From: Rufibacter glacialis
GTDB taxonomy: Bacteria; Bacteroidota; Bacteroidia; Cytophagales; Hymenobacteraceae
Direction of reading: 5' to 3'
Length of the DNA stretch: 64,000 bases
Assembly (NCBI RefSeq): GCF_008271745.1
Contig: NZ_VKKZ01000020.1
Coordinates: 1-64,000 of the forward strand
Both the position numbers and the translations under genes were made by a program. Positions 40,207 through 61,800 of this stretch are shown here, in pieces. The notes under the pieces were generated by a model. That model did no database searches, was not told where the DNA came from, and saw nothing but the letters and a program-made list of their open reading frames with translations. Within the stretch, counting starts at the first letter, position 1, and each line of letters begins with the position of its first letter.

Positions 40207-40207
40207 G

Positions 40208-41494: not shown

Positions 41495-41646
41495 GAAGAT
41501 GTGAAAATTTGGAAATGAATTCTCACAGGAAGGGTTACTGCTTTATTATAGATGAACGAATGGATTTGGAGGAAAAATAAAAGATAAATCATCTTCAAAT
41601 CTCCTAATTTCCAAATCCCCAAATCTTTATCTCCAAATTTGATAAA
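41488..41646. repeat. Low-complexity inverted repeats between hisD and hisC
   Basis: The left part (AGATGAGAAGATGTGAAAATT, from 41489) and the right part (41588-41637, CATCTTCAAATCTCC then AATTTCCAAATCCCC) carry the same GATTTGNAGATG-type unit in opposite orientation, with an unrelated centre. Confidence 0.7.
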
Positions 41647-44104: not shown

Positions 44105-44685
44105 TGAAAACCGTTATTGTTGATTATAAAGCCGGCAATGTGCAGAGCGTCCTTTTCGCGCTGGAGCGGCTGGGGGTGCAGGCCACTGTCTCGGCAAACG
44201 CCGAAGAAATCCAAAGTGCGGACAAAGTGATTTTCCCGGGTGTGGGAGAGGCATCCTCGGCTATGCGTGCGCTCAAAGCCCACCACCTGGACCAGTTGCT
44301 GCCCACCTTGACGCAGCCTTTTTTAGGCGTATGCCTGGGCATGCAACTGCTCTGTCAGCACTCTGAAGAAGGCGATACTGATATGTTAGGTATTATTCCC
44401 GTGCAGGTGAAAAGGTTTGAAGTAGCCATGAAAGTGCCGCACATGGGCTGGAACAACCTGCACCACCTTAAGGGTGATTTATTCACTGGTATCAAGGATG
44501 ATGAGTACGCGTACTTCGTGCATAGCTTTTACGCGCCGGTTACCGAATATACCATTGCCCAAAGCTCTTACCCAGAGCCCTTCAGTGCCGCCCTGCAGTA
44601 CAAAAACTTCTACGCGGTCCAGTTTCACACCGAGAAAAGCGGGGCCCCGGGCGCGCAGATTCTCCAGAACTTCCTAAACCTGTAA
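44104..44685 (+). CDS. hisH: Imidazole glycerol phosphate synthase, glutaminase subunit
   Basis: 193 residues, class I glutamine amidotransferase. The nucleophile Cys is in PFLGVCLGMQLLCQHS (about 72-87), and the His/Glu of the triad are in AVQFHTEKSGAPG. VIFPGVGEASSAMRAL and VPHMGWNNL are HisH-specific. It supplies ammonia to HisF through the barrel tunnel. Its start overlaps the hisB stop by one base, and hisA follows after 2 nt. Confidence 0.97.
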   Translation: MKTVIVDYKAGNVQSVLFALERLGVQATVSANAEEIQSADKVIFPGVGEASSAMRALKAHHLDQLLPTLTQPFLGVCLGMQLLCQHSEEGDTDMLGIIPVQVKRFEVAMKVPHMGWNNLHHLKGDLFTGIKDDEYAYFVHSFYAPVTEYTIAQSSYPEPFSAALQYKNFYAVQFHTEKSGAPGAQILQNFLNL

Positions 44686-44687
44686 GC

Positions 44688-45407
44688 ATGGAAATAATCC
44701 CAGCTATTGACCTCATAGGCGGCCAGTGCGTGCGCCTCACCGAAGGTGATTTCTCGCAACAGACCACCTACCACTCAGACCCTGTGGAAGTAGCCAAGCA
44801 ATTTGAAAGCTTGGGATTGCGCCGCCTGCACCTGGTGGACTTAGACGGAGCCCGCGCCAAGCAGCCTGTCAATTTGCCAATTCTGGCCCGCATCGCCCGC
44901 GAAACTAACCTGCACATTGACTATGGTGGAGGCCTGCAAAGCAGCGAAGCCATCCAGCAGGCCTTTGATGCCGGTGCCAAACAGGTCACGGCCGGCAGCA
45001 TTGCCGTGCGTGAACCAAAGACCGTTCAGAAATGGCTCACCCAATACGGTTCGGACCGAATCATTGTAGGTGCTGATTTCAAAGATAACTTCATTGCCAT
45101 CAATGCCTGGGCTGATCAAAGTGACCTCACCCTGGAGTCGTTTCTCACCTCTTTTTCTGAAAAAGGCGCCAAAACCTTCATCTGCACTGATGTGAGCAAA
45201 GATGGCAAACTGCAAGGCTCCTCCTTGGAGATTTACCAACAGTTGATCCTGAAATTCCCTTCTTTGCAATTCATTGCGAGCGGCGGCGTAACCACCATTG
45301 AAGAGGTGCGCCACCTCCGCGAAGCGGGCCTGCACGGTGCCATCATAGGAAAAGCCATCTATGAAGGCACCATCACCTTGGAGGATCTGGCGAAGGAAGT
45401 AGTTTAA
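44688..45407 (+). CDS. hisA: Phosphoribosylformimino-5-aminoimidazole carboxamide ribotide isomerase
   Basis: 239 residues, (beta/alpha)8 barrel performing an Amadori rearrangement. General-base Asp in IPAIDLIGGQCVRLTEGDF (residue 8) and general-acid Asp in FICTDVSKDGKLQG (about 167). HLVDLDGAR, DYGGGLQS and FIASGGVTTIEEV mark the half-barrel repeat and the phosphate sites. Tightly coupled behind hisH. A 437-nt repeat-containing gap then separates it from hisF. Confidence 0.97.
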   Translation: MEIIPAIDLIGGQCVRLTEGDFSQQTTYHSDPVEVAKQFESLGLRRLHLVDLDGARAKQPVNLPILARIARETNLHIDYGGGLQSSEAIQQAFDAGAKQVTAGSIAVREPKTVQKWLTQYGSDRIIVGADFKDNFIAINAWADQSDLTLESFLTSFSEKGAKTFICTDVSKDGKLQGSSLEIYQQLILKFPSLQFIASGGVTTIEEVRHLREAGLHGAIIGKAIYEGTITLEDLAKEVV

Positions 45408-45844
45408 ATTAATTGGGAATTAAGAATTAGGAATTAAGAATTGAGTGTTCAGTCTAGGTTTTTGGCTAATTCCCGGCCAATTTAATTGATAGACTGTCTA
45501 CTCAATTTGTCATCCTGAAAGGATCTTGTGGGCGAACGGTAGTGTCAGTAAACCATTACTTTTCTAGTTCCTACTTAAGATTTCAATCTGGCGCGAGTTT
45601 TCAGACTCGTGCCACAGGATGAAGCGAGTCTCCAGACTCGCCGGGAGCCAGGAGCCTAACCGAATACTGGAGCCTGGTGATTCATCCCATCAAACGTCCT
45701 AAGCTTAAAGACTTGCGTCAGAGAAAAGAAAACTGTTGTTTTAAGGCAGTTTATGAAAAATAGGCCTTAAAACCGTACCACTGATAAAATAGAAGAACCC
45801 TGCTCTGCTTTCCCACAGAAACGGAGGCAGGGGAGGCCAACCCT
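45408..45844. repeat. Repeat-rich gap splitting hisA from hisF
   Basis: Contains AATTAAGAATTAGGAATTAAG-type repeats (45412-45446), a short palindromic element GTCATCCTGAAAGGATCTTG (about 45510-45529), a REP-like pair (45590-45641) and a hairpin GTTTTAAGGC/GCCTTAAAAC (45737-45772). No gene seen. It looks like accumulated mobile or passive repeats inside an operon. Confidence 0.7.
45590..45641. repeat. REP-like palindromic pair
   Basis: GGCGCGAGT-tttcag-ACTCGTGCC, then GCGAGTCT-cc-AGACTCGC. Two adjacent imperfect/perfect palindromes sharing the core CGAGTCT, resembling REP elements dispersed by RAYT transposases. No RAYT gene is in the window. Confidence 0.65.
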
Positions 45845-46597
45845 ATGCTAACAAAACGAATCATTCCTTGCCTGGACATCAAGAACGGCCGTACCGTGAA
45901 GGGCGTGCGGTTTGAGGATATCAGAGATGCCGGAGACCCGGTGGAACTGGCGGCGCTATACGCCAAACAAGGCGCCGATGAATTGGTGTTCCTGGACATC
46001 ACAGCCACTAATGAGAAACGCAAAACTTTGCGCGATTTGGTGCGCGAGGTGGCCAGGCACATTGATATTCCGTTCACGGTGGGCGGTGGCATCAGTGCGG
46101 TGGAAGACGTGGAGGTGCTGCTTCAGAACGGGGCCGATAAGGTGTCGGTAAACTCTTCTGCGCTGCACCGCCCGGAGTTGATCACGGAGTTGGCCAGCCG
46201 GTTCGGGAGCCAATGCGTGACAGTGGCCATTGATACCAAGAACACCTCAGAAGGTTGGAAGGTCTTCAGCAAGGCGGGAACCGTTGATACCGGTTTGTTT
46301 GCTCTGGACTGGGCGAAGGAAGTGGTGGAGCGTGGGGCGGGTGAGATCCTGCTCACCTCCATGAGCAACGATGGCACCAAAGGCGGCTTCGCGCTGGACA
46401 TTACCGGTGAAATCTCCAGGAACGTGATTGTGCCGGTTATTGCCTCAGGCGGCGCCGGAAACCAGCAACACTTCCTGGACGTGTTCGCCGCCGGGGCAGA
46501 TGCCGCCCTGGCCGCCAGTATCTTCCACTTCCAGGAAGTGCCCTTGCCGGAACTGAAACAGTTTCTGGCCCAAAATAATATTGACATCCGTATATGA
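45845..46597 (+). CDS. hisF: Imidazole glycerol phosphate synthase, cyclase subunit
   Basis: 250 residues, (beta/alpha)8 barrel that uses ammonia from HisH to form imidazole glycerol phosphate and AICAR. Catalytic Asp11 in [19 protein letters not shown] and Asp130 in [45 protein letters not shown] and [15 protein letters not shown] are diagnostic. Normally adjacent to hisA; here separated from it by a repeat-filled gap, and 89 nt before hisIE. Confidence 0.97.
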
Positions 46598-46686
46598 GAC
46601 ACAAGACCCAGGATAGAAGACTCTAGACTTGTACAGAGTAAAACTTATCCTTTAAGTCTTGCCTCTTATGTCTCAAAAAGAATTAT
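46598..46686. repeat. Low-complexity inverted repeat between hisF and hisIE
   Basis: TGAGACACAAGACCCAGGAT near the hisF stop is partly mirrored by ATCCTTTAAGTCTTGCCTC and TTATGTCTCA before hisIE. Units of AGAC(T/A)(C/T)AAGA type. Confidence 0.6.
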
Positions 46687-47337
46687 ATGACCATAGATTT
46701 CAAGAAAGGTGAGGGCTTGGTGCCCGCCATCATCCAAGACGCCGGTACCGGAAAAGTTCTGATGTTGGGCTACATGAACCAGGAAGCCTTCCAGCAGACC
46801 CAGCAAACTGGATTGGTGACCTTTTTCTCCCGTTCCAAAAACCGCCTCTGGACCAAAGGCGAAACTTCGGGCAATACCTTAACAGTGGTGCACATAGAGC
46901 TGGACTGCGACCAAGATACGCTTCTGGTGTTGGTGAACCCAACCGGTCCTGCCTGTCACCGCAACACGGAAACCTGCTTTGATACGGAAGGCTCCGCCCA
47001 ATCTTACCACCATAGAAGTTTTCAGTCGTTTACCCCAACTGAGCAGGCCCTGCAGTTCATTGCCCAATTAGAGCAAACAATCAAAGAGAGGGTGAAAAAC
47101 CCAATTGAAGGTTCCTATACCAATTTCCTCTTTGACAAAGGTCTCCATAAAATGGCCCAGAAAGTTGGCGAGGAAGCGGTGGAAGTAGTCATTGACGCCG
47201 TAGCCGGAAAAACCGAAACCATGAAAGGCGAAGCCGCTGATTTGATATTCCACTTACTGGTGCTGTTGGAAGCCTCTGGCTTGTCCTTAGCTGAAGTAGT
47301 GCAGGTGCTGGAAAGCAGGCATAAACCGAGGGAGTAG
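46687..47337 (+). CDS. hisIE: Bifunctional phosphoribosyl-AMP cyclohydrolase / phosphoribosyl-ATP pyrophosphatase
   Basis: 216 residues, steps 2 and 3 of the pathway fused. The N-terminal HisI part (1-110) has MLGYMNQEAFQQT, FFSRSKNRLWTKGETSGN and the zinc/magnesium sites in ELDCDQDTLLV and GPACHRNTETCF. The C-terminal HisE part (about 125-216), a MazG-like helical domain, has YTNFLFDKGLHKMAQKVGEEAVEVVIDA. Last gene of the his operon, making the set of enzymes complete. Confidence 0.97.
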   Translation: MTIDFKKGEGLVPAIIQDAGTGKVLMLGYMNQEAFQQTQQTGLVTFFSRSKNRLWTKGETSGNTLTVVHIELDCDQDTLLVLVNPTGPACHRNTETCFDTEGSAQSYHHRSFQSFTPTEQALQFIAQLEQTIKERVKNPIEGSYTNFLFDKGLHKMAQKVGEEAVEVVIDAVAGKTETMKGEAADLIFHLLVLLEASGLSLAEVVQVLESRHKPRE

Positions 47338-47534: not shown

Positions 47535-48101
47535 ATGAAACTCTCCTTGCGCCAACTCCAGCCTGCCGACATCACCACTATTACCCATTATTGGTTGACA
47601 TCAGACGCTGCCTTTCTAGAGGGAATGGGAGTAGACTTAACAAAGCTTCCTAGCCCAGAAGAATGGTCCCAGATGCTTACGGAGCAAATCAACACACCGC
47701 TGGCGCAGAAGCAGTCGTATTGCCTTATTTGGGAAGTAGACGGCAATGCCGTTGGGCATAGCAACGTGAACAAAATTGTCTGGGGAGAAGAGGCATATTT
47801 GCACCTGCACCTTTGGTTTCCTGAAGGACGCAAATCAGGGTTTGGCACCGAACTTTTGAAGCGCACCTTGCCGCACTTCTTCCTGGACCTGCACCTCCAA
47901 AGAATTTACTGCGAACCCTACGCGCTTAACCCAGCCCCCAATAAAACGCTGGAGAAGGTGGGGTTCCATTTAGAAAAGGAATACATTACCACTCCTGGCT
48001 GGATCAATTTTGAGCAGCCTGTAAAACGTTGGGTCATGCACCGAGTACAATTCGAAGCCCTCTATGGTCCATTACAGGATCTTCCCGTTCCTACTGCCTG
48101 A
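47535..48101 (+). CDS. GNAT family N-acetyltransferase
   Basis: 188 residues. Begins MKLSLRQLQPADITTITHYWLTSDA, a typical RimJ/RimL-like opening. The acetyl-CoA-binding part is around WFPEGRKSGFGTELLKRTLPHFFLDLHLQRIYCEPYALNPAPNKTLEKVGF, which corresponds to GNAT motif A and the following 'N..s.r..eK.GF' signature. The substrate is unknown (a protein N-terminus, a small amine or an antibiotic are all possible). It lies 197 nt behind the his operon and is probably independent of it. Confidence 0.85.
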   Translation: MKLSLRQLQPADITTITHYWLTSDAAFLEGMGVDLTKLPSPEEWSQMLTEQINTPLAQKQSYCLIWEVDGNAVGHSNVNKIVWGEEAYLHLHLWFPEGRKSGFGTELLKRTLPHFFLDLHLQRIYCEPYALNPAPNKTLEKVGFHLEKEYITTPGWINFEQPVKRWVMHRVQFEALYGPLQDLPVPTA

Positions 48102-48183
48102 GTTTCTATTTGTCTATATTGGTTCAGGCTTGTCAGCCATGGCAGGCTGATGGGTACAGAATTTAAGTGACGAAGAATTCTTT

Positions 48184-49056
48184 TTATAAGGTAGTACCTT
48201 TTAAAAATTCACTGATTTTTCCGGTTACTTCCTCCGGCGCTTCTTCCTGTAAGAAGTGACCTGCTTTAATAGTTTTTATTTCAGCCTGAGGAAAGGCTTC
48301 CTGCCATTTTTCTAAAAAAGAAGCCGGAATCAATTGGTCTTCCGTTCCCCAGAGCACCAAGGCTGGCTTTTCTTTTAAAAAAACCTTTTGGCGGTTTATT
48401 TCTTCAAAAAAAGGAGATTCCTGACGAAGGGCTTTGGCAAAATGCCAGGTGCCTAGGAGGTCTTGTTTTTTCTGGAAGGGGAGCAGGTACTGCTGGTGCA
48501 GCTTTTTAGTTAACTTCTTTTTTTGGTAAAAAGCTTGGGGCAGCAATACCTGAGGGGAGAATTTAAATTGCTGGTAGATAAACTTCCCAATAGCACTTCC
48601 AAAGAATCTACTGGCCTGCATCATGCGTTTCTCTTGGGTGAGGGGCCACATCCAAGAGTTCAGGATAATGATACGGGCCACTTTCTCAGGGTTCTGCACA
48701 GCCCACCCTAACCCGATAGGCCCTCCAAAATCATGGACCACCAAAGTGACCTCAGTCAATTGCAAGTGATTCACCAGGCGGGCCAGGTTTTGACTATGTT
48801 CTTGTAAAGAATAGGAGAAGTGAAGCGGCTTTGCTGATAAGCCAAACCCCAGGTGGTCTACCGCAATACAGCTATAGTGGTTGGAAAGAGCCTTGATTTG
48901 GTTACGCCACAAAAAAGACCAGGTGGGGGTTCCATGAACAAACAATAGGGGAGGACCTTCCCCTTCCACAATATAATGCTGCTCTCCAGCCGGTTGACTG
49001 AAATAGTGGGAGGCAAAAGGATACGCCGTTTGGTCAAGCGTGTCAGGTCTTTCCAT
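48184..49056 (-). CDS. Alpha/beta hydrolase of haloalkane-dehalogenase type
   Basis: 290 residues. HGTPTWSFLWR (41-51) gives the oxyanion region. The nucleophile is an aspartate, Asp109 in LVVHDFGGPIG, instead of the usual serine. The acid is Asp240 in LWGTEDQLIP and the histidine His267 in KAGHFLQEE. An Asp nucleophile with HGxPT is the haloalkane dehalogenase / epoxide hydrolase pattern. In dehalogenases the residue after the nucleophile is a halide-binding Trp; here it is Phe110, so true dehalogenase activity is doubtful, although Trp46 and the Trp pair in NSWMWP resemble that family. Single gene. The TAATTTTG at 49071-49064 (read leftward) may be its -7 element, leaving almost no leader. 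Confidence 0.8.
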   Translation of the reverse strand: MERPDTLDQTAYPFASHYFSQPAGEQHYIVEGEGPPLLFVHGTPTWSFLWRNQIKALSNHYSCIAVDHLGFGLSAKPLHFSYSLQEHSQNLARLVNHLQLTEVTLVVHDFGGPIGLGWAVQNPEKVARIIILNSWMWPLTQEKRMMQASRFFGSAIGKFIYQQFKFSPQVLLPQAFYQKKKLTKKLHQQYLLPFQKKQDLLGTWHFAKALRQESPFFEEINRQKVFLKEKPALVLWGTEDQLIPASFLEKWQEAFPQAEIKTIKAGHFLQEEAPEEVTGKISEFLKGTTL

Positions 49057-49364
49057 GGCAGCCCAAAATTAATGTTCTTAATTACGCTATGAGAAAAGCA
49101 GAAATTTAGGTGCTAAAACCACTTTATCTAAGGAAGTAATAGGTGGTTAATGGTCATAATATTACAAATGCCTTTATCAGGGCCTACCCTCGTATATCTC
49201 CCGTCCTAACAATGGTAAAGCCTTATTTAACTTATAGTCTCTTCCAGCCTTAATTAACTTGAAGAACTAAGTAATATAGGCTTTTACCGTTTTGGTTCTT
49301 CTTTAGCAGGAATAGAGTTAAATCTTTCTTTGGCTTTTGTAGGAAGAAGGTCGGGAATATTCCA
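49057..49364. other. Gene-free stretch between two leftward genes
   Basis: About 308 nt. Apart from the possible -7 element near 49064, I see nothing supportable. Confidence 0.4.
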
Positions 49365-49420
49365 GTGAAAACAAAACCCCGTTTACCACCTTCTTTTCTA
49401 AAAAGGACGTTAAACGGGGT
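49365..49420 (-). terminator. Terminator of the LytTR regulator gene
   Basis: Read leftward, ACCCCGTTTA / TAAACGGGGT form the outer stem with an inner CCTTTTT/AAGAAGG-like stem, followed by TTTTGTTTTC. Confidence 0.8.
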
Positions 49421-49453
49421 GGTCAAATACCTGGCTACTGCCGGTAGGATTTA

Positions 49454-50176
49454 TTACAGTTTATTGATGCGGCCGTAGAATTTGCTCTGGTAAGAACCGC
49501 CTATGGGAATGTATTTGTCTTGCATGAACACCGAATCGTCTTCAATGAGCTCAATCTTTCTGAGGTTGATGATGAAAGAGCGGTGAATGCGAAGGAACAG
49601 ATCTTCGGGCAGCTTTTTGTCAATGGCGCTCATAGTGGTGTACACAATGTGTTTTTTGCTGTCTGTGTTGATCACCACATAATCGCCCCGCGCCTCAATA
49701 AAAGAAATGTTGTTGAGGTTAAGCTTGATGATTTTGTTGTCCACCTTCACAAACAATTCATCTGGGAGGGCCGCCGCCGCTACCGGAGCGGGGGCAATCT
49801 GAGGCTGCAACTTCTTGATGGTGTTCAGCACGGCTTGGGTAAACCGGGTAAAATCAACGGGTTTGAGGAGATAATCTGACACCTGCAGCTCAAAGGCCTG
49901 TAAGGCAAAATCCTTGTGTGACGTGATCAGGATGGTCTCTGGTTTCTGGGGAAGGGTCCGGAGGAGTTCCAACCCGGTCATCTCCGGCATCTCCACGTCC
50001 AGGAAAAGCAGGTCAATGGGTTCATTCTTCAGGAGCCAGGCCAGGCCGTCCACACTGGAGCCAAAGGCTTGCACCAATTCCAGGGAAGGGGTTGCCTGGA
50101 TGTGGCGTTCCAGAATCATTCGGCTCAGCTCATCATCATCAATGATGATAGCGCGGTAGGGGGAGTGCGTTTTCAA
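49454..50176 (-). CDS. LytTR-family response regulator
   Basis: 240 residues. Receiver domain (about 8-125): acidic pocket IIIDDDELS, phosphoacceptor Asp in DLLFLDVEMPEMTG, conserved Thr/Ser in TILITSHKD and Lys in DYLLKPVDF. LytTR DNA-binding domain (about 145-240): LFVKVDNKIIKLNLNNISFIEARGDYVVI and FLRIHRSFIINLRKIELIE. It should bind direct-repeat operators upstream of its targets when phosphorylated. No histidine kinase gene is adjacent, so it is an orphan here. It is divergent from the C39/ATP-grasp operon, which is an obvious candidate target. Confidence 0.93.
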   Translation of the reverse strand: MKTHSPYRAIIIDDDELSRMILERHIQATPSLELVQAFGSSVDGLAWLLKNEPIDLLFLDVEMPEMTGLELLRTLPQKPETILITSHKDFALQAFELQVSDYLLKPVDFTRFTQAVLNTIKKLQPQIAPAPVAAAALPDELFVKVDNKIIKLNLNNISFIEARGDYVVINTDSKKHIVYTTMSAIDKKLPEDLFLRIHRSFIINLRKIELIEDDSVFMQDKYIPIGGSYQSKFYGRINKL

Positions 50177-50448
50177 ATCTGTCCTATTGAAATCTGTACT
50201 ATATACTTATAAAGAATTCGCCTCTAGCCGTAAAGGTATTATTCTTTAGCACTTTTCACCTGCCAGGCAGAGGAAATATTCTTTTAAGGCATCCAGTTTT
50301 CCCTTTTGGAAATAAGCCTGTAAAGCCATTGTTGGGCTAATATATCAAAAACCATTGAAAAGAAACCCTGAAAGCAAAAAGCAGAATGGTCCGTTTGGTA
50401 ACTACCTCGAAAAAACACGTATAAAAGGCACAAAAAGAACTGTCGCCT

Positions 50449-51234
50449 GTGCTTCCCGTTACCTTACTCAATTCGCTTAAAATCCTTACCCAACCAGATG
50501 ATTCCACCTGCGGGCCCACCAGTCTGCACGCGGTGTATCATTATTTCAAAGATACAGTCCCCTTGGACCAGGTAATCTCTGAGGTGTCTTTCCTGGAAGA
50601 AGGAGGCACCCTGGCGGTGTTGTTGGGCTGCCATGCCTTGCGCCGGGGTTACCAGGCCCGCATTTACACCTACAACCTGCATGTTTTTGACCCCACCTGG
50701 TTTAAATTGAGCAAGGAGAAGCTGATTGCCAACCTCAAGGAGCAGTTAATCTATAAATCAGATGCCAAGTTGCACGTGGCCACCCATGCCTACATTGAGT
50801 TCCTGCGGTTGGGAGGGGAGATTTTTCACAAAGACCTTACCCTTAGCCTGCTGGACAGGTACTTCTCTAAAGGGGTTCCCTTGTTGGCGGGCCTCAGTGC
50901 CACCTACCTCTATAACTGCGCCCGCGAGCGAACCAATGACCGGGGCGAGGCCATTTATGACGATGTGAGAGGGGAGCCTCTGGGGCATTTCGTGGTTTTG
51001 GCAGGCTTTGACAACGAGCAGGAAAAAGAAAACGTGATCGTGGCCGACCCTTACCAGGAGAACCCGCTGTCTAAGAACAATTACTACAACGTTCCTATTA
51101 CCCGGCTGCTCAACGCCATCATGCTGGGCATAGTGACCTATGATGCCAATTTATTGGCCATTGAACCAAAAATCACCTCAAACCAACCATCAGAACAACC
51201 CAATCTTCATGCGCAAACTAGTAGTGGTCAATAA
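50449..51234 (+). CDS. C39-like (papain-fold) peptidase of an amidoligase operon
   Basis: 261 residues with a GTG start; no ATG occurs before the conserved part. The catalytic Cys is in TQPDDSTCGPTSLHAVYHYF (about 14-33), and the His and Asp are in PLGHFVVLAGFDNE and VIVADPYQENPL. This is the C39/papain-like arrangement of Gln-less-spaced Cys, His, Asp. There is no signal peptide or transporter domain, so it should act in the cytoplasm rather than on exported bacteriocins. The last 26 nt overlap the ATP-grasp gene, indicating translational coupling. It may cleave or condition the product or substrate of that ligase. Confidence 0.8.
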   Translation: MLPVTLLNSLKILTQPDDSTCGPTSLHAVYHYFKDTVPLDQVISEVSFLEEGGTLAVLLGCHALRRGYQARIYTYNLHVFDPTWFKLSKEKLIANLKEQLIYKSDAKLHVATHAYIEFLRLGGEIFHKDLTLSLLDRYFSKGVPLLAGLSATYLYNCARERTNDRGEAIYDDVRGEPLGHFVVLAGFDNEQEKENVIVADPYQENPLSKNNYYNVPITRLLNAIMLGIVTYDANLLAIEPKITSNQPSEQPNLHAQTSSGQ

Positions 51235-52675
51235 TCCCAAAGACTGGGATCTTGATGTAGAGGATGTGGAAGTGGTAGACGCGCAACGGTACCTGACAGA
51301 CCCCGCCTACATTGAGCTTAAAAGTGCCCGTATCTTCAACCTTTGCCGGTCTTATAAATACCAGAGCAGTGGCTATTACGTCTCTTTGCTGGCAGAGGCC
51401 AGGGGGCACCGGGCCATCCCCAATGTGACCACCATTCAGGACCTGAAGTCCCAGACCATTGTTCGGGCCATCACCGATGAGATCAATGAAACCATTCAGA
51501 AGAGCCTGGCCAAGCTGAAATCAAAGAACTTCACGTTAAGCATCTATTTTGGGCAAAACGTGGCCAAACAGTATGATAAGCTAAGCAAACAGTTGCATGA
51601 CCTGTTCCAGGCGCCTTTGCTGCGCGCCCAGTTTGTGTACAACAAAGAGTGGGTACTGGAAAGCATCAATCCAATACCGGTGAACGAGGTTCCGGAACAC
51701 CACCTGAAAGACCTGTTCAGGTTTGCCAAGGCATATTTTGCCCGCAACCGGTTCTCCAGCATCCGGATGAACAAGAAAATCTATGATCTGGCCATCCTTG
51801 TAAACCCCGCCGACAGCGATCCACCCTCTAATGACAAAGCCATCCAGAATTTTGTGGAGGCCGCAGAATCTTTGGGCTTCTACACCGAGTTGATCACCAA
51901 GGAAGACTACCGGCGCCTCTCTGAATTTGATGCCCTTTTCATCAGAGAGACCACCTCTGTCAACCACCACACGTACCGGTTTGCCCGCCGGGCGTACGCC
52001 GAAGGGCTGGTGGTCATTGACGACCCAGTTTCCATTTTGCGCTGCACGAACAAGGTGTACCTGGCGGAGCTGCTGACCAAGGCCAAGGTGCCTATTCCCA
52101 AAAGCATGATCATCCACAGAGACAACTGCTGCAAGGTAGTGGAGGAATTGGGGTTGCCTTGTGTGCTTAAGAAACCAGATTCTTCCTTTTCCCAAGGCGT
52201 GGTAAAAGTGAAAACCAGCGATGAACTGGAGGATCAACTGAAAGAAATGCTCTCTGAATCTGACCTGATCATTGGCCAGGAATTCAAACCCACCGATTTT
52301 GACTGGCGCATTGGCGTATTGGACAAGCAGCCCCTGTACGCCTGCAAGTATTTCATGGCCAAAGACCACTGGCAGATCTACAACTGGGAAGGCAAGAAAA
52401 AAGACATCACCGGTAATTTTGAGACCGTTCCCTTTGAACAGGTGCCTTTCTTCGTGCTCCACACGGCGCTCAAGGCGGCCAATCTGATTGGTGATGGCCT
52501 CTATGGGGTAGACGTGAAAGAGATAAACGGGAAGGCCTATGTGATTGAGGTAAATGACAACCCCAACATTGACCATGGCGTGGAAGACCGCATCTTGAAG
52601 AAAAGCCTCTACCTCACCATTCTAAAGTCCATTAAGCGCCGTATTGATAACCAGAAGAAATTTATCCTGCCATGA
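51209..52675 (+). CDS. RLAN-domain / RimK-like ATP-grasp amidoligase
   Basis: 488 residues from the ATG at 51209 (MRKLVVVNNPKDWDLD). The N-terminal ~190 residues (YIELKSARIFNLCRSYKYQSSGYYVSLLAEARGH and on) match the RLAN domain, found almost only fused to RimK-like ligases. The ATP-grasp domain (about 270-485) has the ATP-binding lysines in GLPCVLKKPDSSFSQGVVKV, IIGQEFKPTDFDWRIGVLD, and the Mg-binding Glu/Asn in AYVIEVNDNPNIDHG. ATP-grasp ligases activate a carboxylate as acyl-phosphate and join it to an amine; RimK-like ones usually add glutamate or build peptides. The 3' end overlaps the GCS2 gene by 4 nt. Confidence 0.88.
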   Translation: MRKLVVVNNPKDWDLDVEDVEVVDAQRYLTDPAYIELKSARIFNLCRSYKYQSSGYYVSLLAEARGHRAIPNVTTIQDLKSQTIVRAITDEINETIQKSLAKLKSKNFTLSIYFGQNVAKQYDKLSKQLHDLFQAPLLRAQFVYNKEWVLESINPIPVNEVPEHHLKDLFRFAKAYFARNRFSSIRMNKKIYDLAILVNPADSDPPSNDKAIQNFVEAAESLGFYTELITKEDYRRLSEFDALFIRETTSVNHHTYRFARRAYAEGLVVIDDPVSILRCTNKVYLAELLTKAKVPIPKSMIIHRDNCCKVVEELGLPCVLKKPDSSFSQGVVKVKTSDELEDQLKEMLSESDLIIGQEFKPTDFDWRIGVLDKQPLYACKYFMAKDHWQIYNWEGKKKDITGNFETVPFEQVPFFVLHTALKAANLIGDGLYGVDVKEINGKAYVIEVNDNPNIDHGVEDRILKKSLYLTILKSIKRRIDNQKKFILP

Positions 52676-53913
52676 GCGTAGCAAAAAGATTGGGATTGTT
52701 CGCAGGCTACGGCGTGGAGATGGAATACATGATCGTGGACCGCGACACGCTGCAGGTGCGGCCCATGTCAGACCAGGTATTACAGGCAGAAGCCGGTCAC
52801 CTCACCTCAGATGTGGAACGGGGAGCCATGGCCTGGTCAAATGAACTGGTGCTCCATGTGCTGGAACTGAAGACAAATGGTCCGGCCCCTGCTTTGGCGC
52901 CCTTAGCTCAAATGTTCCATTCCGAAGTGGTGCGGGTAAACCAATTGCTCTTGCCGTTCAATGCCATGTTGTTGCCTTCCGGGACCCATCCGTTTATGGA
53001 CCCTTTTTCAGAAACGAAGCTCTGGCCGCATGAAGCCAACGAGATCTACGAAGCCTACAACCGCATTTTCAACTGCCAGGGCCATGGCTGGGCTAACCTG
53101 CAAAGTACGCACCTGAACCTTCCTTTCCAGGATGATGGGGAATTTGGGAGGCTACACGCGGCTATCCGGCTCCTGCTGCCGCTCATCCCGGCCCTTAGTG
53201 CGGCCTCCCCGGTATTGGATAGTGCCGTCACTGGCTTGCTGGATACCCGGTTAGAGGTGTACCGCAAAAACCAGCAGAAGATCCCGCTCATAGCGGGGGA
53301 AGTGGTACCGGAGCCGGTCTTTTCAGAAGCCAATTACCAAAGCCAAATTTTCCAGCCCATGTTCCAGGCAATTTCGCTGTATGACCCGGAAGGCGAACTG
53401 CAGGAGGAGTTCCTCAATTCCAGGGGGGCCATAGCACGTTTCAGCCGGGGCGCCATTGAGATCAGAATCATTGACAACCAGGAATGCCCCTTGGCCGACA
53501 TCGCCATTGTCACCCTGGTTTCTGAGGTGCTAAAGAAACTGGTGGCTCAAAGCTGGAGCAGTTATGAAGAACAGCAGCAAGTCCAGACAGTGGGTTTAGC
53601 GGCCGTTTTCATCCAATCTTTGAAAAACGGGCCCCTAACTGAGGTAGCTGACGCAGCTTATTTGCGCCACTTCGGGCTGGGTCAGGAAAAGGCTACTGTT
53701 CAGGAGATTTGGGACTATCTGTGGCAGGAAGTGCAGCAAGAACAGGCTTTTACCCCAGAAATAAGCCAGGCCGTGGAGGTCCTTCTTCGGCAAGGCTGCC
53801 TTTCTTTGCGAATTTTAAAGTTTCTGGGTCCTAATCCTTCCTTAGAAAAGTTGAAAGCCGTATATAAAATTCTAGCAACTTGTTTGTCTGAGAATAAACT
53901 GTTTCAGCCGTGA
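52672..53913 (+). CDS. GCS2-type glutamate-cysteine ligase family (YbdK-like) enzyme
   Basis: 413 residues. GLFAGYGVEMEYMIVDRDTLQV at the start is the glutamine-synthetase-like fold with the metal-binding Glu pair of the GCS2 family (pattern G.E.E..lvd). VLELKTNGPAPAL, LLPSGTHPFMDP, GWANLQSTHLNLPF and SRGAIEIRIIDNQECPLADIAI are recognisable family segments; the last holds the conserved Arg/Glu. Family members join glutamate (or another carboxylate) to an amine using ATP. Translation is coupled on both sides by 4-nt overlaps. The true substrates are unknown; glutathione synthesis is unlikely in a bacillithiol producer. Confidence 0.85.
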   Translation: MSVAKRLGLFAGYGVEMEYMIVDRDTLQVRPMSDQVLQAEAGHLTSDVERGAMAWSNELVLHVLELKTNGPAPALAPLAQMFHSEVVRVNQLLLPFNAMLLPSGTHPFMDPFSETKLWPHEANEIYEAYNRIFNCQGHGWANLQSTHLNLPFQDDGEFGRLHAAIRLLLPLIPALSAASPVLDSAVTGLLDTRLEVYRKNQQKIPLIAGEVVPEPVFSEANYQSQIFQPMFQAISLYDPEGELQEEFLNSRGAIARFSRGAIEIRIIDNQECPLADIAIVTLVSEVLKKLVAQSWSSYEEQQQVQTVGLAAVFIQSLKNGPLTEVADAAYLRHFGLGQEKATVQEIWDYLWQEVQQEQAFTPEISQAVEVLLRQGCLSLRILKFLGPNPSLEKLKAVYKILATCLSENKLFQP

Positions 53914-54608
53914 AAGACGAGCGGTTCAAAATAATTGTGACGTGTGAGCACGGCGGGAACGAGATTCCTGAAGAATATGCCTCGGGTTTCAAACCCGCGG
54001 ATGGGGTGCTTTCTTCGCACCGGGGCTATGACATTGGCGCATTGGAGTTGTTCCAGAAGTTTAAACCGGTAGCAGATTTTTCCCTCTATAGTACCACCAG
54101 CCGCCTGGTAGTGGAATTGAACCGGTCATTGCACCACCCCCAGTTGTTTTCTGAATTCATGCTCCCGCTATCTACCGCCCAGGCAGAAAAGGTGCTGGAG
54201 CAGCATTACTATCCCTACCGCCAGAGGGCCGAAGCTAAGATTGAGGATTGGGTCCAGCAAAAATTCCTAGTGGTCCATTTGTCGGTGCACACGTTTACGC
54301 CTGAACTGGACGGAAAAGCCCGGAAAACCGACATCGGGTTTTTGTATGACCCTAAACGGGAGCGGGAGCAGTTTCTGGCTGCCCGCTGGCGCCAGCAGAT
54401 GCAGATGAAAACCAAACACAAAATCAGGTACAATTACCCTTACAAAGGCACCGCAGATGGTTTCGTGACGCAGTTGCGAAGAAATTATTCCAACGACCAA
54501 TATACTGGAATAGAACTGGAAGTAAGCCAGCGCTTTCCGGTGGAGAACGGGCCTGAATGGCAGCAGCTTCAGGACACCTTGGTGGCTACTTTTAAACTGG
54601 CGCTTTAA
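53910..54608 (+). CDS. N-formylglutamate amidohydrolase family protein
   Basis: 232 residues, GTG start overlapping the previous stop by 4 nt. VTCEHGGNEIPEEYASGF (zinc and substrate site) and VLSSHRGYDIGALELFQKF at the start, then VELNRSLHHPQLFSEF and VVHLSVHTFTPELDGKARKTDIGFLYDP, are the FGase family motifs. The family hydrolyses N-formyl-glutamate in histidine degradation, but here there are no hut genes; in this ligase cluster it more likely removes an acyl or amino-acid group from a conjugate. The FGase domain is related to peptidoglycan amidases of the same fold class. Confidence 0.87.
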   Translation: MKDERFKIIVTCEHGGNEIPEEYASGFKPADGVLSSHRGYDIGALELFQKFKPVADFSLYSTTSRLVVELNRSLHHPQLFSEFMLPLSTAQAEKVLEQHYYPYRQRAEAKIEDWVQQKFLVVHLSVHTFTPELDGKARKTDIGFLYDPKREREQFLAARWRQQMQMKTKHKIRYNYPYKGTADGFVTQLRRNYSNDQYTGIELEVSQRFPVENGPEWQQLQDTLVATFKLAL

Positions 54609-54640
54609 CCTCTTCCTACTTTTTACAGTATATGTGCAAA

Positions 54641-54657
54641 CAGACAAGTACTGTCTG
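54641..54657. repeat. Short inverted repeat upstream of the holin-family gene
   Basis: CAGACA-agtac-TGTCTG. Could be an operator; there is no further support. Confidence 0.3.
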
Positions 54658-54695
54658 GTACGCGAATCAACAGTTCTACCTAACTATGAAAAACT

Positions 54696-55097
54696 ATGGA
54701 CTTTTTAATTAACCTGCTTGTGAGTGCTGGTATTTTGATGCTGTTAGCTTACCTAATGCCACAAGTACATATCAAAAGTTTCTGGACTGCCCTTTGGGTA
54801 GCCTTTTTGATTGGTATTCTCAATGCCACCCTAGGATTGCTTATCCGGTTTCCGCTGAACCTGGTAACCTTGTTCTTCCTCCAATTTGTGGTGAAACTGG
54901 TGGTGACGGCCATTATTATTAAAGTAGTAGATGCCCTGATCAAGAACTTTGAGGTGAAAGGCTTTTGGCCGGCCTTGGTGATCGCCATTGCCTTAGCCGT
55001 TGCCAGTACCTTAATTGAGCGCAACGACGAGGAATATGATTCTGCTGAATATCAGAATGCGCTGGTGCAGCCCACGCAACCCAGCATGATTGGATAA
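54696..55097 (+). CDS. Holin_4_2-family (DUF-type) inner membrane protein
   Basis: 133 residues with four hydrophobic helices (about 3-20, 28-50, 55-77, 90-107: LINLLVSAGILMLLAYLMP, FWTALWVAFLIGILNATLGL, FFLQFVVKLVVTAIII, FWPALVIAIALAVAST) and an acidic tail. It matches the small membrane proteins of the 'phage holin family 4' group, which are mostly chromosomal and not phage-linked; there is no phage gene nearby. Function unknown, probably membrane-associated housekeeping. It ends at a strong terminator. Confidence 0.8.
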   Translation: MDFLINLLVSAGILMLLAYLMPQVHIKSFWTALWVAFLIGILNATLGLLIRFPLNLVTLFFLQFVVKLVVTAIIIKVVDALIKNFEVKGFWPALVIAIALAVASTLIERNDEEYDSAEYQNALVQPTQPSMIG

Positions 55098-55118
55098 AGG
55101 GAATAAAGCCCTTATAAG

Positions 55119-55162
55119 CCAAAAGCGCCCGTTCCAGTAGGAGCGGGCGCTTTTGGTTTTTT
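55119..55162 (+). terminator. Strong terminator after the holin-family gene
   Basis: CCAAAAGCGCCCG pairs with CGGGCGCTTTTGG, with TCC/GGA continuing inside, loop AGTA, T6 tail. Confidence 0.92.
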
Positions 55163-55223
55163 ATAAAAAAGCTATTCTATAAAAAAGGAAGTTTCAACTT
55201 CTGAACCATGGAGTAAAAGGATT

Positions 55224-56156
55224 CTAATACCCCCGGGAGAGCGTTACTTTATCTGGTACTTCCTGGCCGGCCAGGAACAGCTGAAGGTTCTTGAGGAAAC
55301 GGTCTATTTTGCCTTCCACCTCCAGGGCTTGCCCGCCGCCTGTGTGTTGGGTAAGCACCACATTGTCTAGTTCCCATAATGGGCTTTGCGCTGGAAGAGG
55401 TTCCTGTTCGGTTACATCTAGTACTGCCCCGGCCAAATGCCCTTCTTTTAGTGCCTTGATGAGGGCCGCCTCATCTGTGGTGTTGCCTCGGCCTACATTG
55501 GCATACACGCTCCCTTGCTTCATTTTCTGTAAAAACGCCTCAGAAACGTAGTTGTCCAGGTTGCCCGGCAGGGTGTTGATCACCAGATCTGTTTTGGGTA
55601 ATTGGGCCAACAAATCATCATAAGAAAGGATTTGTGCCGCAGGATTGGTTTTAGCCGACAATTTAACGCTGGTGCCAAACCCTTCCAGAATGCGCTTTAT
55701 GGCTTGGGCAATGGTTCCCGCACCTAAGATGATGGCAGTTTTATGGCCTAGCAACTCCAGCCGGGCCCGTACCTCTTTCCCTTGCCAGGTTTTCTCCCCT
55801 TGGAGACGGAGCAGGGAGGGAAGGCCCCGGTAAAAAGCCAGCACTCCGGCCACCACCGTTTCCGCACAGGGCTGGGCGAAATAATCCCCCATATTGGCCA
55901 CCTGCCCAGTTAGCTCCACCTGTTGGTACTGGTCAAATCCCGCTGATTCTAATTGCCAGAATAAGAGAGCCGGGGAAGAGATTTGAAACCAGGAGGAGGG
56001 AGGGTTCCCGAAAAGAAGGTCCGCAGCCGCAAAGGCGTCCTCACTTTCTTTAGAGGAATCCCCAGAATAAAAATAAGGCGTGATAGTGGCGGGTAACTGA
56101 GATGAAAGGTACGTTTGCTGATTGAGGTCCAGGTCAGCGAAGATAAACAGGTTCAT
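55224..56156 (-). CDS. D-2-hydroxyacid dehydrogenase family protein
   Basis: 310 residues from the ATG at 56156 (MNLFIFADLDLNQQ); the longer frame upstream is not protein-like. NAD-dependent oxidoreductase of the 2-hydroxyacid family. Rossmann motif TAIILGAGTIAQAIKRILEGFG (about 144-165), catalytic Arg in YANVGRGNTTDEAAL, Glu in VLDVTEQEPLP and His in VVLTQHTGGG. The N-terminal half (about 1-95) is divergent, closer to the GhrA/glyoxylate reductase branch. Possible substrates are glyoxylate, hydroxypyruvate or another 2-oxo acid. Confidence 0.88.
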   Translation of the reverse strand: MNLFIFADLDLNQQTYLSSQLPATITPYFYSGDSSKESEDAFAAADLLFGNPPSSWFQISSPALLFWQLESAGFDQYQQVELTGQVANMGDYFAQPCAETVVAGVLAFYRGLPSLLRLQGEKTWQGKEVRARLELLGHKTAIILGAGTIAQAIKRILEGFGTSVKLSAKTNPAAQILSYDDLLAQLPKTDLVINTLPGNLDNYVSEAFLQKMKQGSVYANVGRGNTTDEAALIKALKEGHLAGAVLDVTEQEPLPAQSPLWELDNVVLTQHTGGGQALEVEGKIDRFLKNLQLFLAGQEVPDKVTLSRGY

Positions 56157-56338
56157 TTTCAATAAGCTTTGGCTCAAACAGAAAGGAGAGCAGTGGGAGT
56201 GAAGTAGCCCTTTTTTTAAAGAAGGGCTACCTGCATAGACGTAAAGACCCACTCTGGTGTTTTAGCAAAGAACAGGATTACCCACCGACCCTGCTCCATA
56301 TTGGATTGTGAAACCCCTGATCCTTTGCTAATTAAGCG

Positions 56339-57379
56339 TTATTCCTCGTCCTCGAAATAGAGTTTATAATACTTACGGCCGTCTTCGTCTACGCCTTTCT
56401 CAATCATGTCTTTGTTACCATGAATGTACACGTGGAAGTTCTTGTCCAGTTTAAGCACGCTTTTAAAAACCCGGGCTTGTTTCTTCACCGCCTGGGGAGA
56501 GATTTCAAAGCTGTCTTCCAACTCCACGTCATAGTTCTGGCGGTACTCGGTGTCATAGTTCCTGAAGGACTCAATCAGCTCTGGTTGCCCGAATACCTCG
56601 GTAGCAAACTCATCTTTGTCAAAGGTCTCGTGTTTGTTGAAATATTCCACTGACTTGTTCAGAAGCACGATCTGGTCGGTTTTCTCTACCTCAAATTCCT
56701 CTGACATACGCTCTGAGATGAATTCCTTGGTGAGGTTAAGCAAATGGCTGGTTTGGTGGAACTCATTTTTCACCTGCGTCAGACCCAGGAAATTCTCGCG
56801 CCAGTATTGGGCTTCCTCGCCGCGGTTCTGGTTGTCAATGATGGCCACTATGAATCCTTCGTCACCACGCGTGTTGAAGATGATACAGCCTTTGTCAAAC
56901 TTGTTGCTGTCAATGCCTTCCAGATAGGACATGGTGAAGTCGCGGTTTTTCCGGCTTACGTCAAAGAAACCGTTTTTCACCTCGGTCTTGAAAATACCAA
57001 CGGCCTCTACCACGCGCTCTTCCACCTCGCAGTTGATGAAGTGCGCCACGTACAATTCCCCAGGCTTGATTTTTGGGTGCGTGGTGCTTTCAAACAGGTG
57101 CCGCGCAATGTTGCGGGAGTTCTCGTGGAACGCTTCCTTGTTGGCGAAAATATTGTCGGCGTAGCTGTACACCTCATTGAACTGCAAAGAGGAGGGATGG
57201 GTGAATTTGAATCGCTCATGGGCCTGGGCAAACTTGGTGAGAAAGAACTTCTCCAGTTTCTCGGTGAGGCTGTCGCCAAAATCAAAGGTGTTCTCTGACA
57301 AGGTCAGTTTCTGTTCCAAGCCCTTGTTGCCTACGTGGTGAATGGAAAGGTTAGTGAGGGAGGCGGTGTCAAATTTCAT
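56339..57379 (-). CDS. Nucleoid-associated protein, NdpA/YejK family
   Basis: 346 residues from the ATG at 57379 (MKFDTASLTNLSIHHVGNKG). The family's opening (…i..l.iH.vgnk.......l), the central KPGELYVAHFINCEVEERVVEAVGIFKTE and CIIFNTRGDEGFIVAIIDNQNRGEEAQYWRENFL match NdpA-type proteins, which in E. coli associate with the nucleoid; a 37-kDa size is usual. The C-terminal part is charged and helical. Biochemical role not established. TATTTTTG at 57438-57431 (read leftward) may be its -7 element. Confidence 0.85.
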   Translation of the reverse strand: MKFDTASLTNLSIHHVGNKGLEQKLTLSENTFDFGDSLTEKLEKFFLTKFAQAHERFKFTHPSSLQFNEVYSYADNIFANKEAFHENSRNIARHLFESTTHPKIKPGELYVAHFINCEVEERVVEAVGIFKTEVKNGFFDVSRKNRDFTMSYLEGIDSNKFDKGCIIFNTRGDEGFIVAIIDNQNRGEEAQYWRENFLGLTQVKNEFHQTSHLLNLTKEFISERMSEEFEVEKTDQIVLLNKSVEYFNKHETFDKDEFATEVFGQPELIESFRNYDTEYRQNYDVELEDSFEISPQAVKKQARVFKSVLKLDKNFHVYIHGNKDMIEKGVDEDGRKYYKLYFEDEE

Positions 57380-58836: not shown

Positions 58837-61800
58837 CTACAAGTTCCGGACAAGCTTCATGACTTTCCTGAAAGATTTGTCCGTTGTCTCCACCTCAATC
58901 AGATACAGGTTGTTTCTCGGGATCTTGCTCTCCTCAAAATCAAAGGTTATGGTTTCTGGCCCTGAAGATGTTCCAGTGAATTCCCGCTGGAAGAGCTGCC
59001 GGCCCATCAAATCCATTACCCTGATCCTGAACTGCTGCGGAACTTCTGAGGAAACCTTTAGATTCACTGACTGGTCAAAAGGATTCGGAGAAACTGAAAC
59101 AGCTATTCCTTTCTGGTTGGGTTCCGGCTTTTCGGCCACAGAGGCTACTGCCATGGCGGTGGAAGTTCCGCTCACTGCACCAGACACCTCAATAGCTGAG
59201 ATTTTAGGATTGTCTATGCCCCCGTCAGCTGCCAGGGAACTCAGGCGCAAGTCCAGCACCCCATCTGTGACATTCACCGTGAAGGTTTCCGTCACCGCCG
59301 CGCGCCAACCTACTTTTTTCACGATGTCATAGTTGTCCATTACCTTGGCTCCTTCTAAAAACACGTCAAAAACCCGTTTACCCGCCTTATTATGAACCAG
59401 TTCTGCAAAGTGGAGCACCACCTTGTATTGCCCGTTTATCACCGGAATAGCGTAGGTGAGCGTCTTGTCACCGTAGCGTTCTGTCTGGTACAAAAGCTGA
59501 TCTGAGGTGCCTGAAATAGATTTGCTGTTAAAGTTGGCATACGAAACGCCCGTATAATACTGGTCCGCGGAGAAAGCCCCAAAGGAAGTGTTCAGCGCCC
59601 CCCCTCCCGCGTTCAGGCGGTACGTAGACGTAGAGGTTGGAGGCTGCGGGTTCACCTTCACGGCCACCTGGTCGGCCGGGCTCACGCCCGCCGAGGAGGT
59701 CACCTTCAGGCTGAAGACGTAGTCGCCGGCCACCAGGCCGCTCACCGTGGGCGAGGCAACGGTCTTGGAGCTGAAGGCGGCCGTGTTGGGGCCGCTCACC
59801 TGCGCCCACTCGTAGGCGGTGATGGCGCCCGAGGAGCTGGTGCCCGAACCGCTCAACGTCACGCTGTTCACCGGCAGGGTGATCGTCTGGTCAGGCCCTG
59901 CGTTGGCCACTGGTAACGAAGGCGGCGGCGGGGTTGTTCCGGTGCTATACACCTCAATCCCTGAAATCTTGGGATTGTCCATCCCCCCATCGGCCGCCAG
60001 GGCAGACATATAGAGACTCAACGATCCATCCGTCACTGACACGGTGAAGGTCTCACTAACCGCTGCCATCGCCCCTACTTTCTTGACAATGTCGTAGTTG
60101 TCGAGCACTTTGACGCCCTCCAGGTTCACATCAAACACCCGTTGGCCTAGGTTCTGGAAGTAAATTTCGGCGAAGTGCAGCACCACCCGGTACTGGCCAC
60201 TGGCCACCGGTATGGCATACGAAAGCGTTTGGCCCCAGCCGTACCGCTCACTCTGGTAGAGCGCATCATCTGTGGTATTGGCAATACCGTTCCCGGTGGT
60301 GTAGGTTCCTCCGCTAGCGTAGTACTGGTCCGCAGAGAAGTCTCCCAGGGAAGTGCTTATTGCCCCCCCTCCCGAGTTAAGCCTATACAAGGCGGTGGAC
60401 GAGGTAGGCTGCGGGTTCACCTTCACAGCCACCTGGTCGGCCGGGCTCACGCCCGCCGAGGAGGTCACCTTCAGGCTGAACACGTAGTCGCCGGCCACCA
60501 GGCCGCTCACCGTGGGCGAGGCCACGGTCTTGGAGCTGAAGGCGGCCGTGTTGGGGCCGCTCACCTGCGCCCACTCGTAGGCCGTGATGGCACCCGAGGA
60601 GCTGGTGCCCGAGCCGCTCAGCGTCACGCTGCTCACCGGCAAAGTGATGCTCTGGTCAGGACCTGCGTTGGCCACTGGTAACGAAGGCGGAGGCGTGGTT
60701 CCGGTGCTATACACTTCAATAGCAGAGATTTTCGGATTATCCAACCCACCATCGGCTGGTGCCGAACTCAACAACAGGTTCAGCATGTCGTCAGAAACTG
60801 AAACGGTGAAGGTCTCCATGACAGCTGCCCGTGGGCCTACTTTCCCGGTGATATCATAATTATCCAGCACTTTGGTCCCTTCCAGACTCACATCAAACAC
60901 CCGCTGCCCAGGGCTTTGGAAATAAATCTCGGCGAAGTGCAGTACCACCCGGTACTGGCCGGTTGACACCGGTATGGCGTACGAAAGCGTTCCTGGTCCC
61001 CACCGCTCGGTTTGGTAGAGGCCGTCGTCAGTGGTATTGGCAATGGCGTCTCCCACAGAGAACGGGGACCCACCCGAGAAATATTGGTCTGCAGAGAAAT
61101 TACCCATGGAAGTGTTCAGCGCCCCCCCTCCTGCGTTCAGCCGGTAAAGGGCGGTGGACGAGGTAGGCTGCGGGTTCACCTTCACGGCCACCTGATCAGC
61201 CGGGCTCACGCCCGCCGAGGAGGTCACCTTCAGGCTGAACACGTAGTCGCCGGCCACCAGGCCGCTCACCGTGGGCGAGGCCACCGTCTTGGAGCTGAAG
61301 GCCGCCGTGTTGGGGCCACTCACCTGCGCCCACTCGTAGGCCGTGATGGCTCCCGAGGAGCTGGTGCCCGAGCCGCTCAGCGTCACGCTGCTCACCGGCA
61401 AAGTGATGCTCTGGTCAGGACCTGCGTTGGCCACCGGCAGCGAAGGCGGAGGCGTAGATCCCCCAGGGTAGACCTCAATACCAGAGATCTTTGGATTGTC
61501 CATCCCCCCATCGGCTGCCAGGGCAGACATGTTGAGGTTCAACGACCCATCCGTCACCGACACGATGAAGGTCTCTGTGACGGCAGCCAAAGGTCCAACT
61601 TTCTTGACGATGTCGTAGTTGTCTAGCACTTTTGCCCCTTCCAAACTTACATCGAATACCCGTTGCCCAAGGTTCTGGAAGTAAATTTCAGCGAAGTGCA
61701 GCACCACCCGGTACTGCCCATTGCTCACTGGTATGGCATACGAGAGGGTCTGGCCCCAGCCGTACCGCTCGCTTTGATAGAGGGCATCATCTGTGGTGTT

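Follow-up and report, generated by a model that had tools for sequence, protein, structure and literature searches.

The four-gene cassette of Rufibacter glacialis

The element described here is a cassette of four genes on contig NZ_VKKZ01000020.1 of Rufibacter glacialis (Bacteroidota), analysed as part of a stretch of 64,000 nucleotides (positions 1 to 64,000), hereafter the window. The genes encode a C39-like peptidase, a ligase composed of an RLAN domain and an ATP-grasp half, a GCS2 ligase and a hydrolase of the FGase family (Table 1), and they form one conserved module that is putatively devoted to a short N-capped peptide. Successive genes overlap by 26, 4 and 4 nucleotides, in agreement with the initial annotation, which had described four genes with overlaps of 4 to 26 nucleotides. 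The longest open reading frame (ORF) of the ATP-grasp gene begins at 51140; since most relatives without a GNAT part start at the residue encoded by the ATG at 51209 (alignment of 24 sequences), the start was set at this codon. Among the matches listed, the closest relative is Rufibacter roseus, whose ATP-grasp protein displays 90% identity.

Table 1. Features of the cassette and of its surroundings in the window.
Feature	Position	Strand	Remarks
C39-like papain-fold cysteine peptidase, 261 amino acids	50449..51234	+	GTG start; Pfam match
RLAN/RimK-like ATP-grasp ligase	51209..52675	+	Start moved from 51140 to 51209
RLAN domain (PF14401)	51281..51712	+	Pfam; predicted fold resembles a lid-less ATP-grasp enzyme
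GCS2 carboxylate-amine ligase, divergent subfamily, 413 amino acids	52672..53913	+	Pfam match
FGase (N-formylglutamate amidohydrolase-like hydrolase), 232 amino acids	53910..54608	+	GTG start; Pfam match
HisG, histidinol dehydrogenase, aminotransferase, HisB-type, two His_biosynth and PRA-CH/PRA-PH matches	39355-47337	+	Histidine biosynthesis genes
Acetyltransf_3 gene	47535-48101		
Small membrane protein, PF04020 four-transmembrane family	54696-55097	+	
Long protein with repeated malectin and PKD-type domains	58837-63987	-	

Sequence and predicted structure of the four proteins

The RLAN/ATP-grasp protein belongs to the family PF14401, with a Pfam match of 2.7e-50 to RLAN (170.3 bits for a cut-off of 25) and of 2.2e-9 to the RimK domain (37.7 bits for a cut-off of 21). 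Its ATP-grasp half is closest to the glutamate ligases of the RimK/LysX type. It was rejected as an ordinary RimK alpha-L-glutamate ligase, scoring 66 of the 143.4 bits required by TIGR00768 (rimK_fam) and 23.3 of the 331 bits required by PRK10446. The residues Lys344, Asp458, Glu470 and Asn472 are kept in 197 of 197 ATP-grasp sequences. The structure model of the RLAN domain (predicted local distance difference test, pLDDT, of 93.2) was compared with the PDB, where the best 50 of 730 matches have a best E-value of 2e-5, a root-mean-square deviation of 7 to 13 and a TM-score normalized by the query of 0.42 to 0.59; we take these 50 to be proteins of the ATP-grasp fold (among them RimK, LysX and ArgX, as well as synapsin and inositol phosphate kinases). 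The comparison of the RLAN sequence profile with ATP-grasp did not confirm homology (probability of 0.5 per cent). The structure, though not the sequence profile, thus suggests that RLAN may be a duplicated or decayed, lid-less ATP-grasp-like domain.

The GCS2 protein is recognized by the Pfam GCS2 profile (1e-25; 91.1 bits for a cut-off of 21). Identification as a YbdK or glutamate-cysteine ligase was rejected, as the protein reaches 49.3 of 176.4 bits for TIGR02050 (YbdK) and 42.8 of 249.05 bits for TIGR02048. The profile of the subfamily aligns with four canonical GCS2 proteins over 344 columns (E-value of 1e-17); the N-terminal motif G-x-E-x-E is common to both kinds and a conserved GHGW segment is found in the cassette subfamily. 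A second GCS2, of the canonical kind, is present in the genome of R. glacialis. From these scores and those of the ATP-grasp protein, neither ligase is an ordinary RimK or glutamate-cysteine ligase, which answers a doubt raised in the initial annotation.

The C39-like protein matches Peptidase_C39_2 (2.3e-7) and Peptidase_C39 (8.2e-5) in Pfam. The residues Gln15 and Cys21 are kept in 90 of 90 sequences, and His180 and Asp200 in 92 of 92. As the conserved active-site stretch starts at residue 15, little space is left for a signal peptide; reading of the sequence thus agrees with the lack of a secretion signal noticed initially, and the peptidase is probably cytosolic. In its structure model (pLDDT of 92.6), the best PDB fold among the matches listed is the pseudomurein endoisopeptidase PeiR (3e-6), followed by the domains of C39 leader peptidases and, more distantly, by cathepsins. 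The best 50 of 296 PDB matches (E-value up to 10) comprise papain-fold peptidases, C39 domains of transporters and papain-like toxins. A role as leader peptidase of an export transporter was rejected, the protein being stand-alone and having no exporter as a neighbour in the window; across 120 loci, only 6 are flanked by members of a recurrent ABC ATPase family.

The fourth protein matches the Pfam family FGase (3.7e-20) and aligns with Atu2144 (PDB 2odf) at 1.5e-35. Its invariant residues His14, His37, Asp41 and His127 are common to Atu2144, unlike His123. For all four families, the residues counted were picked from the alignments, so that their near-invariance across 72 to 197 sequences is partly expected.

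Conservation, gene order and distribution

The initial annotation had proposed that the four genes work together and that the proposal would fall if they did not co-occur elsewhere. The 56 other four-gene loci examined all have the same gene order on a common strand, which indicates that the arrangement is not due to chance. Where the genes are separate, the C39-like gene is always upstream of the ligase gene (91 of 91 loci), with GCS2 (110 of 110) and FGase (73 of 73) downstream. In one planctomycete, a single ORF of 988 amino acids (L207:2391-5357) joins RLAN, ATP-grasp and GCS2. A few GCS2-type loci have a gap of 0.5 to 1.3 kb before FGase (L077, L114). Copies (L001-L008), the locus L009 and the duplicates L056, L073 and L107 were dropped before the counts, and L086 and L094, located at contig ends, were also dropped from the tree counts. 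Correlations of distances between the four genes range from 0.46 to 0.72 (57 loci); they were computed without a species-tree baseline and no conclusion was drawn from them.

In the three phyla sampled, RLAN was detected in 44 of 395 genomes of Bacteroidota, in 72 of 398 genomes of Pseudomonadota (75 matches) and in 37 of 149 genomes of Planctomycetota (40 matches). In the same 395 genomes of Bacteroidota, searches with dedicated profiles found 30 strong matches to the GCS2 subfamily, all beside RLAN, and 27 matches to the C39 subfamily, all at the cassette in genomes that contain this GCS2; a 31st GCS2 match (genome G109) is found at 9e-6 without RLAN. The GCS2 and C39 lists and coordinates were matched by eye with those of RLAN, and up to four (GCS2) or seven (C39) candidates were scored per genome, so that an extra copy could be missed. 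As far as these searches reach, both subfamilies are apparently private to the cassette in this phylum.

From the 44 RLAN genomes, 40 loci were fetched (all except the window genome itself, G360, together with G155 and G370, these last two with weak RLAN matches). The locus L009 (genome G179), whose ATP-grasp gene and GCS2 gene are both split between two frames and which is either a decayed copy or an assembly error, was dropped. The 39 loci tallied contain C39, GCS2 and FGase (17 loci), C39 and GCS2 (8 loci), GCS2 and FGase (3 loci) or an RLAN/ATP-grasp protein fused to GNAT (11 loci). In the three genomes with GCS2 and FGase (G198, G226, G355), the profile detected no C39 of this subfamily. 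When all 199 loci are considered, duplicates included, C39 was not seen in 16 loci with GCS2 and FGase, FGase was not seen in 33 loci with C39 and GCS2, and 7 GCS2 loci have neither hydrolase; contig ends cut some of the loci in these three groups. GCS2 and the ATP-grasp ligase would thus be the core of the cassette with optional hydrolases, and because the latter are often absent beside this core, a part in trimming or recycling suits them better than an obligatory step.

In a scan of named genomes, at least 586 relatives were detected and the best 80 retained, which favours copies that resemble that of the window. After removal of three duplicates, all four genes are present in 31 of 77 loci, distributed in nine phyla (Pseudomonadota, Bacteroidota, Thermodesulfobacteriota, Planctomycetota, Omnitrophota, Fibrobacterota, Ignavibacteriota, Nitrospirota and Acidobacteriota), and the GCS2 form is found in named records of 16 phyla in this biased scan. 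Several phyla do not form single clades in the ATP-grasp tree, a scatter that may reflect transfer; many records are metagenome bins. No match was found in phages and no confirmed one in viral contigs; 11 plasmid records were matched. One record (L209, NZ_LR134436.1), a 9-kb circular "plasmid" of Legionella adelaidensis carrying RimK, GCS2 and FGase-type genes with fur and dapF, looks like a chromosome fragment.

Apparent alternation of GCS2 and GNAT

In the Pseudomonadota, 60 of the RLAN matches were fetched. GNAT and DUF3335 (C39-like) are found beside 39 of them, GNAT only beside 17, and a GNAT-RLAN fusion with additional GNAT and DUF3335 in 3, the last one having neither; GCS2 was found in none of the 60. 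Pfam domains were confirmed on two of these proteins. GCS2-type loci do exist in this phylum: they represent 13 of its 17 loci in the biased named scan, and one (G397, identical to L091) is among the 15 matches left unfetched. The 20 loci fetched from Planctomycetota contain GCS2 (16 loci), GNAT (3 loci) or neither (1 locus).

Of 195 scored rows, 110 have only GCS2, 77 only GNAT, 6 neither and 2 both; the GNAT matches of these two are weak (39 and 30 bits, versus at least 131 in four GNAT-type loci). FGase accompanies GCS2 in 73 rows and occurs without it in one, and 39 GCS2 rows have no FGase. On the tree, where the states of the window (GCS2 present, GNAT absent) were entered by hand, at least 10 changes are needed for the GCS2 state and 8 for the GNAT state. 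GCS2 and a RimI-like GNAT thus appear as alternatives beside the same ligase; their exclusivity is suggestive and not statistically established, because few independent pairs differ in both. The association of FGase with GCS2 also rests on few evolutionary changes. Two linked GNAT proteins were examined, and both have RimI as their closest family (78.7 and 64.7 of 86.4 bits).

Proposed function and alternatives

We tentatively propose that the cassette encodes a cytosolic module for building a short N-capped peptide, with the ability to take it apart again; this reading is given slightly less than an even chance. It is drawn from the conservation, the fixed order, the fusion, the near-exclusive presence of GCS2 or GNAT, the conserved residues of catalytic type and the searches that found neither a precursor nor a widely recurrent transporter beside the cassette. 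GCS2 would activate the gamma-carboxyl group of glutamate with ATP and join it to the amine of an acceptor X, giving gamma-Glu-X. The RLAN/ATP-grasp ligase would then activate a free carboxylate of this capped compound with ATP and add an amino acid or amine Y, a step modelled on the chemistry of glutathione synthetase or RimK. The two kinds of amide would be cleaved by the C39-like cysteine hydrolase and FGase, so as to trim or recycle the product. In the sister form, the RimI-like GNAT would replace GCS2 and install an acetyl (or other acyl) cap instead of gamma-glutamyl. The replacement of GCS2 by GNAT points to the capping of an amine by either enzyme ahead of the RLAN ligase step, and the association of FGase with GCS2 suggests that FGase acts on the GCS2 product. 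The model predicts this product as the FGase substrate, and an acylated counterpart in GNAT-type genomes. It is possible, with a probability nearer to one third than to one half, that these forms represent a bacteria-wide class of N-capped peptides, made by one conserved RimK-like ligase, whose RLAN domain would itself be lid-less and ATP-grasp-like, with interchangeable GCS2 (gamma-glutamyl) or RimI-like GNAT (acyl) and recycled by hydrolases. If so, a common metabolite of environmental bacteria is absent from metabolic maps.

Several observations weigh against the peptide module. Since no credible match by sequence to the GCS2 profile was obtained from the PDB, glutamate as the presumed donor rests on family knowledge and on the profile match to canonical GCS2. 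To our knowledge, no function has been assigned to the RLAN domain. FGase-family genes are also found outside cassettes, for example in Blastopirellula marina. Among seven independent pairs that differ in GCS2, GNAT differs in the opposite direction in 2.4 on average (always or nearly always in this direction) and has the same state in 4.6; with so few independent changes, the sign test is not significant. Finally, RimI is a protein N-terminal acetyltransferase, and a RimI-like GNAT would fit a protein target equally well.

This last point belongs to the alternative of protein tagging, where the RLAN/ATP-grasp ligase would add amino acids to a protein in the manner of RimK, GCS2 or GNAT would cap the tag or the N-terminus, and C39 and FGase would remove it. 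Characterized GCS2 and FGase enzymes are known to work on small molecules, and no target gene recurs near the cassette; tagging is therefore unlikely, although it deserves more weight than the other alternatives, given the RimK/LysX affinity of the ATP-grasp half, the kinship of the linked GNAT with RimI and the lack of a precursor gene found in cis. A ligase is also paired with a peptidase in RimK/RimB, as described in PMC12239564. The same enzyme classes, in the same logic of gamma-glutamyl ligase, ATP-grasp ligase and papain fold, would also suit a thiol route resembling that of glutathione and phytochelatin, in which gamma-Glu-Cys, formed by GCS2, is lengthened by the ATP-grasp ligase, with the papain-fold protein in the role of a transpeptidase. 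We consider this route improbable: GCS2 is far under the cut-offs of glutamate-cysteine ligases, and phytochelatin synthase is not among the best 50 PDB matches of the C39 model. Moreover, a strong match to the glutathione synthetase domain (E-value up to 5e-38) is present in 7 of 12 RLAN genomes, the other 5, including the window genome, having weaker matches; as 6 of the 11 GCS2-type genomes are among the 7, the cassette is not simply a substitute for glutathione.

Two further alternatives dissolve the module. FGase could be a plain deformylase of histidine degradation beside unrelated neighbours, as the genome of R. glacialis has a urocanase match (on another contig) and no second FGase match was found in it; urocanase is present in 8 of 10 genomes searched. 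However, FGase is invariably downstream of the ligase and goes with GCS2 in 73 of 74 rows, Thiobacillus thioparus has a cassette FGase and no urocanase match, and NCBIfam gives no family for the window protein at an E-value of 1; this explanation, with its unrelated neighbours, is very improbable, but the FGase of R. glacialis may still have a role in histidine degradation. The urocanase match and the second, canonical GCS2 also mean that the absence of hut and glutathione genes stated in the initial annotation fails genome-wide. The chance pairing of an ordinary glutamate-cysteine ligase with RimK agrees with the automatic annotation of a related record ("RimK family protein", "glutamate-cysteine ligase family protein") and is contradicted by the co-occurrence, the conserved order, the fusion and the scores under both curated cut-offs, so that its probability is close to nil.

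A graspetide, that is a ribosomally synthesized and post-translationally modified peptide (RiPP), was rejected because no precursor ORF recurs beside the ligase: among small ORFs (20 to 100 amino acids, same strand, flanks of 900 nucleotides, blastp E-value of 1e-3), none is common to more than 4 GCS2-type loci, although a very variable precursor could be missed. No transporter or further gene is widely recurrent beside the 120 loci, the commonest other neighbour being a kinase-like family (10 of 120 loci, mostly on the opposite strand). Common metabolites, or a protein whose gene lies elsewhere, are therefore the probable substrates. Anti-phage defence was rejected, PADLOC giving 0 families for all four proteins. 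The readings as a glutathione or hut pathway, a RiPP, an exporter system, a defence system or chance neighbours are all disfavoured, without all being excluded.

Genomic surroundings

Histidine biosynthesis genes are located shortly 5' of the cassette and a small membrane protein is encoded directly 3' of it; further downstream, the opposite strand encodes a long protein in which malectin and PKD-type domains are repeated (Table 1). Rfam gave no match across positions 48000-56500. Promoter-like motifs number 6 versus 4.4 in shuffled sequences, and terminator-like motifs 7 versus 6.5.

Comparison with known systems

The literature search, which did not include Iyer et al. 2009, found no paper on the four-gene set or assigning a product to it. 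This 2009 survey reportedly covered amidoligase neighbourhoods, RLAN among them, and the link of GNAT-DUF3335 to RLAN is also said to be in print; the four-gene set, or part of it, may already be in the survey. The fusion of GNAT to the C39-like family DUF3335 is described in a 2023 paper (PMC10318531), which cites Iyer et al. 2009. As this fusion is in print and RLAN is a named Pfam domain, the "undescribed" status proposed in the initial annotation is uncertain. We have not seen stated the cassette-private C39 and GCS2 subfamilies, the alternation of GCS2 and GNAT, the link between FGase and GCS2, the fusion with GCS2 or the ATP-grasp-like fold of RLAN. The one annotated GCS2-type record examined has generic names only. 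From the gene order (pagP, short-chain dehydrogenase/reductase, RimK), PA1345 is presumably an RLAN protein. PMC12802237 lists PA1345 as a "hypothetical ATP-binding protein"; a CpxR motif is predicted for it, without support from DNA affinity purification sequencing (DAP-Seq).

The GNAT-DUF3335 neighbourhoods share with the cassette the RLAN/ATP-grasp family (24-33% identity over RLAN in the Pseudomonadota sample) beside a C39-like protein. They differ in that GNAT, usually fused to the C39-like part, replaces GCS2 and FGase; in the cluster of GNAT-C39 neighbours, 31 of 59 members are on the opposite strand. No GNAT adjoins the cassette in the window, on which the GNAT profile applied to the other loci was not run; the Acetyltransf_3 gene is separated from the cassette by 2.3 kb and by two genes of the opposite strand. 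N-acetylglutaminylglutamine synthetase follows a logic of GNAT plus ATP-grasp for an N-capped dipeptide; its family TIGR03103 is not among the best 25 of the 39 matches that the ATP-grasp protein of the window has in NCBIfam, and one linked GNAT matches it weakly (27.5 of 569 bits). The cassette resembles RimK/RimB in the association of a RimK-like ATP-grasp ligase with a peptidase, and differs by RLAN, GCS2 and FGase, by a C39 fold instead of a retropepsin and by a RimK score under the cut-off. Glutathione biosynthesis likewise associates a ligase of the gamma-glutamyl ligase superfamily with an ATP-grasp ligase, whereas the cassette has divergent subfamilies, two hydrolases in the operon and the RLAN domain.

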